Virus record (IMG/VR): IMGVR_UViG_3300027985_001671
Span: 1 to 26,098 of that record
DNA from: a virus
DNA length: 26,098 bases
Direction: 5' to 3' (one strand)
The notes under the pieces were generated by a model. It was given only the letters and a program-made list of their open reading frames with translations. It searched no databases and was not told where the DNA came from. A program made the position numbers and the translations under genes. Shown here piece after piece: positions 13,474 through 23,171 of the stretch; the stretch's first letter is position 1; the number at the start of each line of letters is the position of its first letter.

Positions 13474-14564
13474 GCACCATCACCCTCTCCGACGGCACGA
13501 CTACCCTCGACCTTGGCGATATGCGCTGGCTCGACCGCCTCTGGTCGCCGGTGCGTCACGCCTCGGTCCCATCTCTCACCGGCGCGCTGCTGCTAGATGT
13601 GGCCACCCTCCAGGCCGGGCGCCCCATCACCCTGCAGGGCGGCGAGGGCTACGGTTGGCTCACCGGCGCCCAGCTCGAACAGCTGCTCGCCTGGGCGGCG
13701 CTGCCCGAGGCGTTCCTCACCCTGAGCCTCGACGGCCAAAGCCGAGAGGTGGTCTTTGACCACGCAGGGGAGGGCGCCATTCGCGGCGAGCCGCTCTTCC
13801 CCGCCATCGTCGACCCGGATGAGGCGCAGGACCAGCACCTGCTCACCCTGCGCTTCGTCGAGACCATCCCACCCAGTGTGCTCGCCGCTGCGGTAGAGCC
13901 CCTATGGTGGCTGCGCGCCAGTGACCTGGCGCTCGGTGGCGTGAGTGTCTGGCCGGATGCGGGCTCACTCGGTATCGCCCCCTATCAGGGCAGCATCGAC
14001 CTACAGCCACAGGCCGATGGGTCGACCGTATGGTTCGATGCAGTGGACGACGGACTCGTCATCCCACTGCTCAACGGTGCCGGGCATATGGCCGGAGCCG
14101 CGACCCTGTGCGTGACATTCGTCCTCAGCGTGCCGCAGCTTACCAACGCGCTGAACGTCCTACACGACAACATCGGCATGGCGCCTTGGTATCGCTACGG
14201 GTGCAGCATCAGCACGGCGGGCGCCATCACATTCAAAGTTGCCGACAGCCTTGCGGCACTCATCTCGGTGACATCGGCGGCGGGCGTCGTCACCCCTGGG
14301 CAGGTCATCGTGATATCGACTGTGCTCACGGCTGATGGATATCTACACCTCTACGCCAATCGCATCGAGGTCGGCCTCTCAGCGGTGGCCGCGACGGGCG
14401 GCATCCTCCCGGCCACGACGTTCAGCAGCGCGTCGCGGGTGCGCTCCGCATACGGGAGTTCGTCCCAGATGGCGCTCAAAACACTGCGCCAGTTCCCCAT
14501 CACGACCCTCGACGAGGCGATCGCCGAACACACGTCTATCTGCGATCAGGAGGGGATCGCATGA
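13470..14564 (+). CDS. Tail-tip protein with C-terminal lectin-like segment
   Basis: 364 aa. The N-terminal about 135 residues (TTTLDLGDMRWLDRLW, SLTGALLLDVATLQAGRPITLQGG, DEAQDQHLLTLRFVE) follow a pattern found in phage tail proteins encoded right after tape measure genes, the position of distal tail proteins. Residues about 170-345 look like a LamG/concanavalin-type jelly roll (STVWFDAVDDGLVIPL, TVLTADGYLHLYANRIEV), which could bind host surface sugars. Codon use in the second part (about 14080-14480) is visibly less biased than in the first, suggesting a more recently acquired domain. The gene overlaps both neighbours by 4 bases. Confidence 0.7.
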   Translation: MSTITLSDGTTTLDLGDMRWLDRLWSPVRHASVPSLTGALLLDVATLQAGRPITLQGGEGYGWLTGAQLEQLLAWAALPEAFLTLSLDGQSREVVFDHAGEGAIRGEPLFPAIVDPDEAQDQHLLTLRFVETIPPSVLAAAVEPLWWLRASDLALGGVSVWPDAGSLGIAPYQGSIDLQPQADGSTVWFDAVDDGLVIPLLNGAGHMAGAATLCVTFVLSVPQLTNALNVLHDNIGMAPWYRYGCSISTAGAITFKVADSLAALISVTSAAGVVTPGQVIVISTVLTADGYLHLYANRIEVGLSAVAATGGILPATTFSSASRVRSAYGSSSQMALKTLRQFPITTLDEAIAEHTSICDQEGIA

Positions 14565-19562: not shown

Positions 19563-19593
19563 CCCCCACCGTCCTGCAAGACATCAGTGGGGG
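19563..19593 (+). promoter_or_regulatory. Leader hairpin of membrane-protein unit A
   Basis: CCCCCAC (19563-19569) pairs with GTGGGGG (19587-19593). Inside the loop GTC (19571-19573) and GAC (19579-19581 region) can form a small inner stem around CTGCAA. The hairpin is 63 bp from stem start to the ATG of the 56-aa gene. No T run follows, so a terminator is unlikely. Unit B has the same structure with a changed but still paired base. Confidence 0.6.
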
Positions 19594-19625
19594 CTCGTGA
19601 AGCAACGTCTAAAGGTAACTTCAAC

Positions 19626-19796
19626 ATGCAAGAGCATAGTCGAATCAAGATCAAATTCAAAGAGAGTTTCCTGATCCAGGTAACAACCAGTTCTGAAAAG
19701 GTCGCACACAAGGCGCTGTGGATGATCATCCTTGTCGTCATAGTGCTGGCGGGGGCCGATGTGGTCACCACGCTCATCGAGCACCTAGGCCCATAG
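19626..19796 (+). CDS. 56-aa single-span membrane protein (copy A)
   Basis: ATG at 19626 with AAAGGT 8 nt upstream; a GTG at 19587 in the same frame lies inside the conserved hairpin and is less likely. The product begins MQEHSRIKIKFKESFLIQV, a basic/amphipathic N-terminal part, followed by a single hydrophobic helix (ALWMIILVVIVLAGADVVTTL) and a short EHLGP tail. I do not recognise the family. Position after the tail genes fits a lysogenic-conversion 'moron', a superinfection-exclusion protein or a holin-like function, but none is shown by the sequence. It is too AT-rich compared with the tail genes to be part of the original block. Confidence 0.65.
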   Translation: MQEHSRIKIKFKESFLIQVTTSSEKVAHKALWMIILVVIVLAGADVVTTLIEHLGP

Positions 19797-19986: not shown

Positions 19987-20157
19987 GTGCAAGAGCATAG
20001 TCGAATCAAGATCAAATTCAAAGAGACGTTTCTGATCCAGGTAACAATCGGTTCTGAAAATGTCGCGCACAAGGCACTGTGGATGATCCTTCTCGTCGTC
20101 CTGGTGCTGGCGGGGGCCGATGTGGTCACCACGCTCATCGAGCACCCCAGCCCATAG
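19987..20157 (+). CDS. 56-aa single-span membrane protein (copy B, GTG start)
   Basis: Same length and layout as copy A with the ATG changed to GTG. I count 17 base differences in 171. Amino-acid changes include S to T, T to I, S to G, K to N, two I to L, and LG to PS at the end; the hydrophobic segment is conserved as ALWMILLVVLVLAGADVV. The frame is intact and four synonymous changes are present, so the copy seems to have been kept functional after duplication. Same unknown function as copy A. Confidence 0.62.
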   Translation: MQEHSRIKIKFKETFLIQVTIGSENVAHKALWMILLVVLVLAGADVVTTLIEHPSP

Positions 20158-20292: not shown

Positions 20293-20550
20293 TTAGCCAT
20301 CACTATCCTTGTTGTACTTGGGATTTTTCCCACCGTGGTTCCTACGGTAGGTATCGAGCTGCTGGGCTTCTTTCTTCTTTGCCCCTTCGCTCGTCATCCG
20401 CCTGGACGTAGGGGTCATGCTAGTAAATTGCTTACCAGCATCGCGGTGCTCCCTTTCGCGCCGTTCCAGGTCATTGGTGGTTCCACGGTACACAACCTCT
20501 CGGCCCTGCCGCAGTTCATAGGTCACAGTATCTCTAGGCTTAGACGCCAT
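20293..20550 (-). CDS. Small GIY-YIG nuclease-like protein
   Basis: The start is the second of two close ATGs: GGAG (complement of 20559-20562) is 2 nt from the ATG at 20556 but 8 nt from that at 20550. The 85-aa product has VTYELRQGREVVYRGTTNDLERREREH, which matches the GIY-YIG core (Y in the first strand, Y-x-G in the second, then the conserved Arg helix), and AKKKEAQQLDTYRRNHGGKNPKYN, with the metal-binding Glu and the final P-x-x-N. The first Gly of GIY is replaced. Single-domain proteins of this type may cleave DNA; the substrate is unknown. A terminator follows the stop codon. Confidence 0.65.
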   Translation of the reverse strand: MASKPRDTVTYELRQGREVVYRGTTNDLERREREHRDAGKQFTSMTPTSRRMTSEGAKKKEAQQLDTYRRNHGGKNPKYNKDSDG

Positions 20551-20583
20551 TTTCATGTCTCCAAGAAAAAACTAGGTTTAGGT

Positions 20584-20608
20584 GGCTGGACGGCTGAGCC
20601 GTCCAGCC
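20584..20608. other. 11-bp perfect inverted repeat between two minus-strand genes
   Basis: GGCTGGACGGC (20584-20594), loop TGA, GCCGTCCAGCC (20598-20608). It lies between the 48-aa gene stop (20616) and the GIY-YIG-like gene. On the minus strand the next T run begins about 11 bases after the stem, so termination is possible but not standard; it may instead protect the upstream transcript. Confidence 0.5.
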
Positions 20609-20615
20609 AGGTCAC

Positions 20616-20762
20616 TTACGCACGGACAAGAAAGGCCCAGCTCTCGTACCCATAATCATGGGCGTCGAGCACCTTGTTGCTGGAGCCCCTGACGCGACGA
20701 TAGCGGCAGAACACCCACTTGAAGCCTTTCGGGGCCGGTTTGGTTGCTACACTTTTAAGCAC
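20616..20762 (-). CDS. 48-aa basic protein, GTG start
   Basis: Not obvious by length. GGAGG (complement of 20771-20775) is 8 nt from a GTG at 20762. The product, beginning MLKSVATKPAPKGFKWVFC, is basic and carries a CRYRRVRGSSNKVLDAHDYGYESW block, a pattern that I associate with small phage-encoded proteins (aromatic residues plus a conserved D-A-x-x-Y-G-Y-x-x-W). Function unknown. Its Shine-Dalgarno can pair with an upstream CCTCC (20781-20785 complement) to form a 5-bp hairpin, so translation may be regulated. It is the middle gene between the ImmA peptidase and the GIY-YIG-like protein on the minus strand. Confidence 0.55.
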   Translation of the reverse strand: MLKSVATKPAPKGFKWVFCRYRRVRGSSNKVLDAHDYGYESWAFLVRA

Positions 20763-20804
20763 ATAGATCACCTCCTTTCCGGGAGGAGATTTTTACCTAG
20801 CCTT

Positions 20805-20832
20805 TTCTCGGAGCCATTTAATAGGCTATACT
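20805..20832 (+). promoter_or_regulatory. Candidate promoter for the small RNA
   Basis: TATACT (20827-20832) is a good -10 box. A poor -35 (TTCTCG, 20805-20810) lies 16 bp upstream; TTTTCT (20803-20808) at 18 bp is an alternative. Transcription would begin about 20839-20840 and run to the terminator at 20906-20939. No protein-coding frame fits this transcript. Confidence 0.4.
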
Positions 20833-20839
20833 TTTCTTG

Positions 20840-20939
20840 CACAGAAAAAGTTGAGGGGCTAGGAACGATGTCCTCCCGGTACCATCGTTTTTCGCTCTTC
20901 TAAGAACGGGTTCGAGCGCCAACTCGAATCCGTTTTTTT
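20840..20939 (+). ncRNA. Candidate small RNA with CCUCCC loop
   Basis: About 100 nt between two minus-strand genes. Stem 1 is AACGATG (20864-20870) with CATCGTT (20883-20889), enclosing the 12-nt loop TCCTCCCGGTAC, which is complementary to Shine-Dalgarno sequences (GGGAGGA). A T run follows stem 1. Stem 2 is the intrinsic terminator. The loop sequence TCCTCCCGG also occurs in inverted orientation at 20779-20787, in the leader of the 48-aa gene. Unpaired C-rich loops are a common mRNA-targeting element of bacterial small RNAs. No sequence family was recognised. Confidence 0.5.
20906..20939 (+). terminator. Intrinsic terminator, plus strand
   Basis: ACGGGTTCGAG (20906-20916) and CTCGAATCCGT (20923-20933) form an 11-bp stem with one G-T pair, followed by a run of seven T (20933-20939). 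No plus-strand gene ends here, so it is best explained as the end of the small RNA; it also stops plus-strand transcription from entering the ImmA gene antisense. Confidence 0.85.
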
Positions 20940-21477
20940 ATAGAAGTCTTTCTTTCTTCAGTTTTCTCCACCGCAGATCAGCGGCTTCCCATGAGACACC
21001 GAAGACAGTCATGATGTCGTGAGGCCCTGAGCAGTACTGTCTTACCAGCTCCACTGGCATCAGGAACTCAGCAGCGAACTGATTAGCCTGCCATTCGCTG
21101 TCTTCGTAGATCTCGTGAGGACCACTTCTCCTTGAGTACACAGGCTTGTGCTCCAGGAATAAGTGTCCGAATTCATGTGCCACCGTGAACCGTGCTCGAC
21201 CGTTGTCATCACACGCCTCCAAGTAGACATCCTCACGAAGCTCAATGGTTGTATGACTGGGATAGGTGTTCCCTTCCACATCCCCCATCTCGCTCTCCTT
21301 CAGGTACTCCCAGTCCACTCCGAACTTAGGTAGGACATGTTCCAGAAGGCCAATCACGTCGACCCACGGCCCGACCACCCCAAGCCTCGTGCGCATCAGG
21401 TTCGCTAGCGCCCTGATTTTTTGAATGCTTTGCGGGGCTACAGGTGTACCCTTGGGCTTGTACTTATTTGTCGGCAC
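20938..21477 (-). CDS. ImmA/IrrE-family metallopeptidase
   Basis: 179 aa. RFTVAHEFGHLFLEH gives the HExxH zinc motif (His101, Glu102, His105), and EWQANQFAAEFLMP (from Glu128) is the third-ligand region typical of ImmA/IrrE. These peptidases cut or are paired with XRE-type repressors to relieve lysogenic or stress-gene repression. The GTG start overlaps the 3' end of the upstream repressor gene by 14 bases and lacks a well-placed Shine-Dalgarno of its own, which suggests translational coupling. The pair XRE repressor plus ImmA is characteristic for phage immunity switching (as with ImmR/ImmA). Confidence 0.88.
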   Translation of the reverse strand: MPTNKYKPKGTPVAPQSIQKIRALANLMRTRLGVVGPWVDVIGLLEHVLPKFGVDWEYLKESEMGDVEGNTYPSHTTIELREDVYLEACDDNGRARFTVAHEFGHLFLEHKPVYSRRSGPHEIYEDSEWQANQFAAEFLMPVELVRQYCSGPHDIMTVFGVSWEAADLRWRKLKKERLL

Positions 21478-21835
21478 CTTTCTTTAACATCTCCCATAGT
21501 TCGTTTTTCTCCTCCTCGGACATGCCTGGCAGCTTTCGAGCGAAAGCCGTCATCAGCATGCGCGACTCTCCATCCAAGCTGCCCATGTCTACCGCGTCCT
21601 TCGACAGAGCAGCGGCATTGCGCAGCTCATCGCGAAAGCCGGGCTTCTGGAGCCCCTTGGCACCGAAGAACTCCTCGGTCCCATGCAGGAGCGCATCAGT
21701 AATGCGCTTCTTTCCTGTCTCAACCGCTGACAAGTAGGCAGCCGTAACATCCAGGTACTCAGCCATCTCTTTCAGTCGCACCTCGAGATCGGTCCTGTAG
21801 TTCCGCACCAATTTCCCGAACGGTGTCAGTTGCAT
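21464..21835 (-). CDS. XRE-family helix-turn-helix repressor
   Basis: The ATG at 21835 has AGGAGG 8 nt upstream on the minus strand; a longer frame from 21865 has none. 123 aa: FGKLVRNYRTDLEVRLKEMAEYLDVTAAYLSAVETGKKRIT is an XRE-type helix-turn-helix (recognition helix around VTAAYLSAVETGKK), followed by an acidic helical tail (MSEEEKNELWEMLKKGADK). With the co-encoded ImmA peptidase it is the likely lysogenic repressor or an antitoxin-like regulator. It faces the c4/antirepressor cluster across a 340-bp regulatory gap where its operators should be. Confidence 0.85.
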   Translation of the reverse strand: MQLTPFGKLVRNYRTDLEVRLKEMAEYLDVTAAYLSAVETGKKRITDALLHGTEEFFGAKGLQKPGFRDELRNAAALSKDAVDMGSLDGESRMLMTAFARKLPGMSEEEKNELWEMLKKGADK

Positions 21836-21865
21836 TTCTATACCTCCTGCCACGATGCCGCTCAT

Positions 21866-22160: not shown

Positions 22161-22179
22161 GTGTCCGCCGGATGTTCCT

Positions 22180-22269
22180 ATGGTGGCGCGTGCGAGGAGG
22201 CCTTCGGGTCTGCCGGTTCCCTGTGACGCCGGTCTGTCAACCTTGTACGTGTCACCACCCTCTTTTTGA
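22180..22269 (+). CDS. Icd/Ash-like mini-ORF upstream of the antirepressor
   Basis: ATG at 22180, 29 aa, starting MVARARRPSGLPVPCDAG. The consensus MVxRAxxPxGxPVS is the N-terminus of Ash/Icd-type leader proteins in P1, P4 and many enterobacterial prophages, where it is translated ahead of ant or other lysis-lysogeny genes. The upstream ribosome binding site is weak (GGATG). It may act mainly as a translational control frame. An alternative 37-codon frame starts at 22172 in another phase. Confidence 0.45.
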   Translation: MVARARRPSGLPVPCDAGLSTLYVSPPSF

Positions 22270-22313
22270 CAGGGGAGGGCGGTGATTGGATGACCAGTCA
22301 CAGGAGACATGCT

Positions 22314-23171
22314 ATGGAAGCTTTCCCCTCTCTTTCGTCTTTCACCATCGGAGACGACACCCTCCCCACCGTCAACGCACGCGACCTGCATACCTTTCTC
22401 GATGTAGGCCGTGACTTCTCGACCTGGATGAAAACCCGGATCGATGAGTACGGATTCCAAGAGAATCAGGACTTTACGAGTTTTCCCCGAAATGGGGGAA
22501 AACCCCAAGGGGGGCGTCCTACAATCGACTACCACCTCACCCTCGACATGGCCAAAGAGCTGGCGATGGTCGAGCGCACCGAGCAGGGCCGCCGCGTACG
22601 CCGCTACTTCATCGAGTGCGAGCGGCGGCTGATGCAGCAGAGTGACCAACCCGTAGCCCTTACCGCCAGTGGCGCCACCGAGCGCACCCGCCTGAGTGAG
22701 CTGGTCGGCTACCTGTGCGAGCACCCGCAAGGAGTGGAGACCGACGTACTCCTGGCACACACCACCAGCCGCTACGGCCTCAAAACCTCCTCCGCACGCC
22801 GCCTGCTCTCCGCCCTGCGCAAAGTGCCGGGCGTGGTGCTGGCGGAGCTGGGCAAGGCCGTGGCCTACCGCGTCGTCGAAGGCGAGCTGGTGGACCCGCC
22901 CACCCTGGCACAACCCCTGGCCGACCTGCCCACCTTCAGCAAAGAGCAGCTCGAACACACCACCCTCGACCATCACACCCGTGTCGAACTCCACCGCCAG
23001 ATGGACCGCTTCTTCCACGAACTGCGCAGCGCCGGTGTCCAGTGCGAAGGCGTGCACCGCGTCTGGGGCGCCACCTACCACCAGCTGGTGAGCCTGCAGA
23101 ACCGCATCAGCGAGACCGCCCGCTTCCTCTCCCTGGGCAACCAGGAGCAGACCCCGCTCTGGCCGCAGTGA
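22314..23171 (+). CDS. AntA/AntB-family antirepressor
   Basis: The ATG at 22314 has AGGAG 7 nt upstream; earlier in-frame starts at 22266 and 22293 lie before that site. 285 aa. Residues about 18-88 are an AntA/AntB domain: VNARDLHTFLDVGRDFSTWMK, EYGFQENQDFTSF, IDYHLTLDMAKELAMVERT, then GRRVRRYFIECERRL, the usual domain-end helix. The remaining about 180 residues form a separate helical and beta region (GVETDVLLAHTTSRYGLKTSSARRLLSALRKV). In P1, Ant inactivates the C1 repressor and triggers lytic growth. Here it faces the XRE/ImmA pair and sits behind a c4/icd-like leader, so RNA control of its translation is likely. Confidence 0.85.
   Translation: MEAFPSLSSFTIGDDTLPTVNARDLHTFLDVGRDFSTWMKTRIDEYGFQENQDFTSFPRNGGKPQGGRPTIDYHLTLDMAKELAMVERTEQGRRVRRYFIECERRLMQQSDQPVALTASGATERTRLSELVGYLCEHPQGVETDVLLAHTTSRYGLKTSSARRLLSALRKVPGVVLAELGKAVAYRVVEGELVDPPTLAQPLADLPTFSKEQLEHTTLDHHTRVELHRQMDRFFHELRSAGVQCEGVHRVWGATYHQLVSLQNRISETARFLSLGNQEQTPLWPQ

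Follow-up and report, generated by a model that had tools for sequence, protein, structure and literature searches.

A small RNA gene that, on comparison with its relatives, looks real and conserved was found in a prophage, which we analyzed as a window of 26,098 nucleotides (IMG/VR record IMGVR_UViG_3300027985_001671). We estimate a probability of about 0.6 that it encodes a cis-encoded antisense RNA which, through competition with an activating pseudoknot, controls translation of a neighboring 48-amino-acid (48-aa) protein, as in the rep control of IncI and IncB plasmids. A stretch of 6-9 nt in the sRNA hairpin loop recurs in the 48-aa leader, close to the Shine-Dalgarno (SD) sequence, and both copies change together among relatives. 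At the level of sequence, the conserved layout and this coupled variation are clear.

Results

Candidate sRNA gene and its neighborhood

The candidate antisense sRNA of about 100 nt is located on the plus strand (20838..20940, start approximate), between a peptidase gene and the 48-aa gene. The minus strand carries an HTH regulator (21464..21865), which is weakly CapH-like, an ImmA/IrrE-type M78 peptidase (20938..21477), which is CapP-like (Pfam 2.8e-17; PADLOC capP 4.7e-21), the 48-aa gene (20616..20762, GTG start) and a GIY-YIG-like gene. We propose that the hairpin and leader discussed below are carried on the transcript of the peptidase gene.

The sRNA promoter has a good -10 box (TATACT, 20827..20832) and a poor -35 box, and a simple sigma-70 scan reported no promoter at this site; relatives carry TTGnnn, 16-18 nt and TAnnnT at the same place. 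Hairpin 1 (20864..20889) consists of the 7-bp stem AACGATG/CATCGTT (20864-20870/20883-20889) and the 12-nt loop TCCTCCCGGTAC (20871-20882), and in the predicted fold an outer stem (20853-20859/20894-20900) surrounds it. An intrinsic terminator (20902..20939) follows, with a 15-bp stem (20902-20916/20923-20937), the hexaloop CGCCAA (20917-20922) and a T run to 20939, and this terminator is antisense to the stop codon of ImmA. The original prediction had placed the -10 box, the stem with its 12-nt loop and the terminator at these positions, and all of them are present. The 104-nt RNA folds at -42.8 kcal/mol, compared with -24.95 +/- 3.37 kcal/mol for shuffled sequences (z -5.3). The same prediction had described the RNA as having no coding frame; an 81-aa plus-strand ORF (20658-20903) does overlap it, but on inspection this ORF looks spurious.

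The first nine bases of the loop, TCCTCCCGG (20871..20879, plus strand), which we call element X, are identical to a stretch of the 48-aa leader on the opposite strand (20779..20787, minus strand), immediately 5' of the SD sequence, as had been claimed. TCCTCCCGG occurs three times in the window, at 20871 (+), at 20779 (-) and at 14404 (+) inside a late gene, where 0.47 occurrences are expected and three were reached by 1 of 100 shuffles. From the window alone, the shared 9-mer could be near chance; the comparison of sequences across loci rules chance out.

The 48-aa protein (phrog_33859, no function assigned) matched no NCBIfam or Pfam family at threshold. It is strongly conserved, with the consensus KPAPKGFRWVFCRYRKVRGNSxKVLDAHDYGYEAWxFLVR, and by inspection it is basic and not membrane-like. 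Its structure model shows a compact, globular beta fold (pLDDT 89.9, pTM 0.60), and this predicted fold had no recognizable match in the PDB. Elsewhere in the window, a gene for a small membrane-like protein is duplicated in tandem, giving two near-identical short plus-strand ORFs (MQEHSRIKIKFKE...; 19587-19796 and 19987-20157) with repeated flanks.

Distribution of the module

Near-identical DNA was found neither in phage or E. coli collections nor in 55 relatives of the host genome, and the exact sRNA hairpin had no match in IMG/VR. Since the RNA diverges too fast for a DNA search, we used the 48-aa protein as the query. It matched 35 viral contigs in a first scan and 65 viral loci, overlapping those contigs, in an alignment search, together with 32 plasmid records and 34 genome loci. 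Homologues are present in prophages of gamma-, beta- and alphaproteobacteria, and in small plasmids; the host genomes include Escherichia, Vibrio, Photobacterium, Xenorhabdus, Acinetobacter, Psychrobacter, Pseudomonas, Dyella, Sulfuritalea and Phenylobacterium. For comparison, 108 loci, a few of them partial or doubtful, were grouped into 49 clusters.

In most clusters, the strand opposite the leader has a -35/-10 pair with 16-18 nt spacing, followed by a hairpin and a terminator. At nearly all loci an ORF on the same strand ends upstream of the 48-aa gene, mostly 110-220 nt before its start, and this ORF usually encodes an M78 peptidase. The position of the sRNA, its promoter, hairpin and terminator, and the link between loop and leader thus recur in diverged relatives, which bears out the prediction of a plus-strand sRNA gene whose loop is tied to the 48-aa leader. 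The module of two E. coli prophages is situated close to a prophage end or an integrase, away from the main repressor genes. Three 4-9 kb plasmids of Klebsiella and E. coli (L148, L149 and L150) carry the 48-aa gene after a 61-aa ORF, with the HTH-ImmA genes divergent; their sRNA layout is similar, and the loop sequence AGATGA or GGATG is common to the leader.

The 48-aa cassette is also found behind other defense-like genes. At locus L052 (1248-2342), the preceding ORF encodes a protein like the TIR effectors of the CAP12/Pycsar type and not ImmA, and at L129 (1202-2353) a STAND/AAA ATPase replaces ImmA. At another locus (L044, 2871-4735), a relative of the 48-aa gene is followed by an AAA ATPase gene resembling the PtuA/AriA defense ATPases, and a C4 RNA lies upstream. 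These CapH/CapP-like, TIR, STAND and PtuA-like neighbors suggest a role of the 48-aa protein in defense or stress response. In the freely accessible literature searched, we found no description of the sRNA or of the module.

Coupled variation of loop and leader

The loop sequences are mostly specific to one cluster, for example CTCTTGG, CTCAGTA, GGCTCCA, CGGTTAC and CCATCC, where the window has TCCTCCCGG. In an automated permutation test with a fixed window, the mean longest same-sense match between loop and leader was 6.16 nt against 5.20 +/- 0.14 for permuted pairs (z 6.7, 0 of 20000 permutations), and complementarity between them was at chance in the same test (z -0.07). The signal was weaker in an earlier permutation test whose leader window was broad, in our guess because it took in promoter sequence. 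When loops were picked by hand from the folded hairpins, a choice that can favor the result, identity reached z 11.7 over 41 clusters; as the clusters are partly non-independent and such figures are inflated, a diverged subset of 21 clusters was built to limit this, and it gave z 10.1. Loop and leader had at least 6 nt in common in 30 of the 41 clusters, compared with 11% of mismatched pairs; the other 11 fell below 6 nt, some of them from one mismatch or indel (L020, L034 and L046). Hairpin loops contain the shared pieces more often than expected by chance (p 2.4e-5).

The hand-picked set was made without seven poorly fitting loci, namely L051, L065, L069, L129 and the Pasteurellaceae-type L039, L040 and L072. 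The latter three, from Mannheimia and other contigs, carry a UUGGCG/CGCCAA hairpin within a different, multi-hairpin RNA, and their loop-leader identity is not clear. This RNA is possibly a different version of the switch.

With sRNA and mRNA encoded on opposite strands, any sequence that the sRNA loop has in common with the leader makes the leader complementary to a hairpin loop within the read-through mRNA. Opposite sRNA hairpin 1, the mRNA would form a putative hairpin (20864..20889, minus strand) whose loop CCGGGAGGA (20879-20871) is complementary to leader X, and we propose that the two form a pseudoknot. In the window, the helix between them would have 9 bp and -18.9 kcal/mol, as calculated for the isolated duplex only. 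Among 18 alignable enterobacterial-type loci, 10 of the 14 pairs in the mRNA hairpin stem and the loop-leader helix showed changes on both sides, with a covariation score of 0.290 against 0.160 +/- 0.018 when shuffled and at most 0.10 with slid partners. The stem of hairpin 1 covaries on the mRNA strand in these relatives.

Leader structure and access to the Shine-Dalgarno sequence

As predicted, CCTCC (20786-20782, minus strand) in the leader is able to close GGAGG (20775-20771, minus strand), and the resulting hairpin (20771..20786) would hide the SD sequence of the 48-aa gene. Covariation of this CCTCC:GGAGG type of masking stem was looked for in the relatives and not found, and comparison of the masking hairpin with permuted leaders gave p 0.03/0.10. 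In the window, predicted access to the SD sequence rose from 0.17 to 0.59 when X was engaged elsewhere. Over 28 clusters, mean predicted access rose from 0.30 to 0.43 with X masked (p 0.0095 against the free leader and 0.043 against masking of other stretches), with no predicted rise in several loci. Since X can mask the SD sequence and mean access rises when X is engaged, the most likely reading of the direction of control is that the pseudoknot activates and the sRNA represses.

Discussion

We propose the following mechanism. A read-through mRNA from the upstream gene, here HTH-ImmA, would carry the hairpin opposite the sRNA, with its loop CCGGGAGGA complementary to X. Left alone, X would fold onto the SD sequence and mask it; paired with the hairpin loop, it would free the SD sequence for translation. 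Being complementary to the mRNA hairpin and bearing a copy of X in its loop, the sRNA would occupy that hairpin and prevent the pseudoknot, so that the 48-aa protein is kept off. Initial contact between the two RNAs may be aided by the second sRNA loop, CGCCAA. Production of the 48-aa protein would be expected whenever the read-through mRNA outruns the sRNA, for example once the ImmA-like protease has inactivated the HTH repressor. In this scheme, we infer transcription of the RNAs, formation of the pseudoknot, the off direction of the sRNA and the expression step triggered by the protease.

The loop had originally been thought to pair with SD sequences, either across many phage mRNAs or in competition with the cis hairpin. 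When the window was scanned for sites that form 8 or more pairs with the loop core, the sole one on the plus strand was the sRNA's own upstream region, and the others fell on the minus strand, in most cases opposite late genes of the plus strand, so that broad targeting of phage mRNAs found no backing. It also seems unlikely that the loop pairs directly with the SD sequence or start region of the 48-aa mRNA, with leader X as a second, cis-acting anti-SD. Such pairing can form in the window (-8.7 kcal/mol) and is good in some relatives (-13.9 kcal/mol at L030 and -11.2 kcal/mol at L045), but the loops fit their own ribosome binding site no better than those of other loci (z 0.34 over 41 clusters; z -0.63 over 21 diverged clusters), and the coupled changes reach into parts of X outside the pairing with the SD sequence. 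A dedicated anti-SD or multi-target sRNA is therefore unsupported. Of the idea that the sRNA competes with the cis hairpin, the link between leader and hairpin is upheld, whereas two competing anti-SDs describe it less aptly: what the sRNA and the leader have in common points rather to mimicry, by the sRNA, of one pseudoknot arm in the read-through mRNA.

The same-sense identity would also arise if the sRNA loop and the copy of X in the leader each bound a third partner, RNA or protein, one RNA being a decoy for the other, and a few loci (L020 and L046) keep the identity despite one would-be A:C mismatch in the pseudoknot. We regard this as still less likely than direct pairing. The window has no second loop site at gene starts, a complementary partner is already available in the read-through mRNA, and X changes freely while most 48-aa proteins stay 60-80% identical, which makes a protein partner unlikely. 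Plain antisense action or transcription interference, in which a full duplex with the read-through mRNA is cleaved by RNase III and no pseudoknot is needed, would leave unexplained why the leader repeats the loop with coupled changes outside the antisense region; the proposed mRNA and the sRNA are fully complementary over about 100 nt, and even so we give this explanation little credence. Similarly little weight falls on a DNA inverted repeat, that is, regulator binding sites flanking the sRNA promoter: the copies are indeed inverted about 80 bp apart around the promoter and adjoin an HTH gene, but the units are 6-9 bp, non-palindromic and placed in hairpin loops, and the hairpin stem covaries as RNA.

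Competition with an activating pseudoknot is known from ColIb-P9, where repZ is activated by a pseudoknot that is blocked by Inc RNA (review PMC8383071). In our control analysis of ColIb-P9, the 7-nt sequence TCCGCCA occurs in the same orientation in the Inc RNA loop and in the repZ leader, so the signature of the present loci matches that of an established pseudoknot/antisense switch. As in IncI-alpha repZ/Inc RNA and I-complex/IncB RNAI, an antisense RNA lies opposite a leader hairpin; the sequence signature likewise indicates a hairpin loop complementary to an element near the ribosome binding site, and in this layout the antisense loop consequently repeats the leader element. A UUGGCG/CGCCAA loop occurs in both systems; the target RNA of ColIb-P9 carries UUGGCG as its loop motif, to go by the title of Asano et al. 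1998 (cited in PMC10724649). In our loci, UUGGCG or CGCCAA forms a hairpin loop in 16 of 46 clusters including the window, mostly in the terminator hairpin rather than the pseudoknot loop, with a further match outside any loop at L036. In the background, 5 of 838 hexaloops had either sequence, and some background loci carry the sRNA themselves.

On the other hand, the present system differs from IncI-alpha in several respects. It controls the 48-aa protein and not a replication initiator, it is located in prophages behind peptidase or other ORFs, the second hairpin of its sRNA is the terminator carrying the hexaloop, its pseudoknot loop varies, and no leader-peptide gene is defined. The Rfam models PK-repZ (RF01087) and PK-repBA (RF01089) gave no match in the window at gathering, none at E up to 5 in 20550-21000 and none at E up to 0.5 in 8 relatives, whereas Rfam recognizes ColIb-P9 with 194.5 bits. 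The present loci and the IncI switch are alike in design and not demonstrably related.

CopA of IncFII-type plasmids is not known to act by competing with an activating pseudoknot. It is similarly an antisense RNA with stable stem-loops that acts on a leader, and its model (RF00042) had no Rfam match in the present loci. A further related system is timP/TimR, in which an sRNA destabilizes a leader pseudoknot required for timP translation (PMC11228461). It is of the type I toxin-antitoxin class, whose antisense RNAs inhibit translation of small toxic, usually hydrophobic peptides. A small protein and a predicted leader pseudoknot acted on by an sRNA are common to both, but timP encodes a membrane toxin and the 48-aa protein is predicted to be globular. 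C4 (RF01695), known from P1-type antirepressors, is likewise a phage antisense RNA, and the window carries one 1.3 kb away, at 22176-22262 (plus strand, 80.9 bits), directly before the AntA/AntB antirepressor gene (22266-23171, plus strand) in an ordinary P1-type arrangement. This is the sole RF01695 match; C4 is a separate RNA whose target is ant, and the sRNA itself does not match the model. The BjrC68 sRNA (RF02353) scored 20.5 bits against a gathering threshold of 39 and resembles the sRNA in general two-hairpin shape only, and other weak Rfam matches to the sRNA were below threshold.

In terms of biology, switches in which an antisense RNA blocks a pseudoknot have been known from the control of plasmid copy number and, more recently, from a single toxin gene. 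Single-stranded DNA is sensed by CapP, which cleaves CapH, upon which CapH and CapP activate neighboring immune operons (PMC13373217). More tentatively than the mechanism itself, we suggest that these loci may form an undescribed, widespread family of antisense RNA/pseudoknot switches outside plasmid replication control, which would act as a second lock on a conserved small protein of DNA-damage-sensing, defense-associated mobile modules of the CapH/CapP-like type, with an unchanged architecture and a loop that varies in the manner of an immunity type. That the loop changes so fast hints at type-specific control. If this is true, the same layout before one small protein family in many prophages and small plasmids would be a general lock on genes of mobile DNA, and it would provide natural covariation data for studying a pseudoknot/antisense switch. 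It would also mark the 48-aa protein as one that is costly for the host to make freely.
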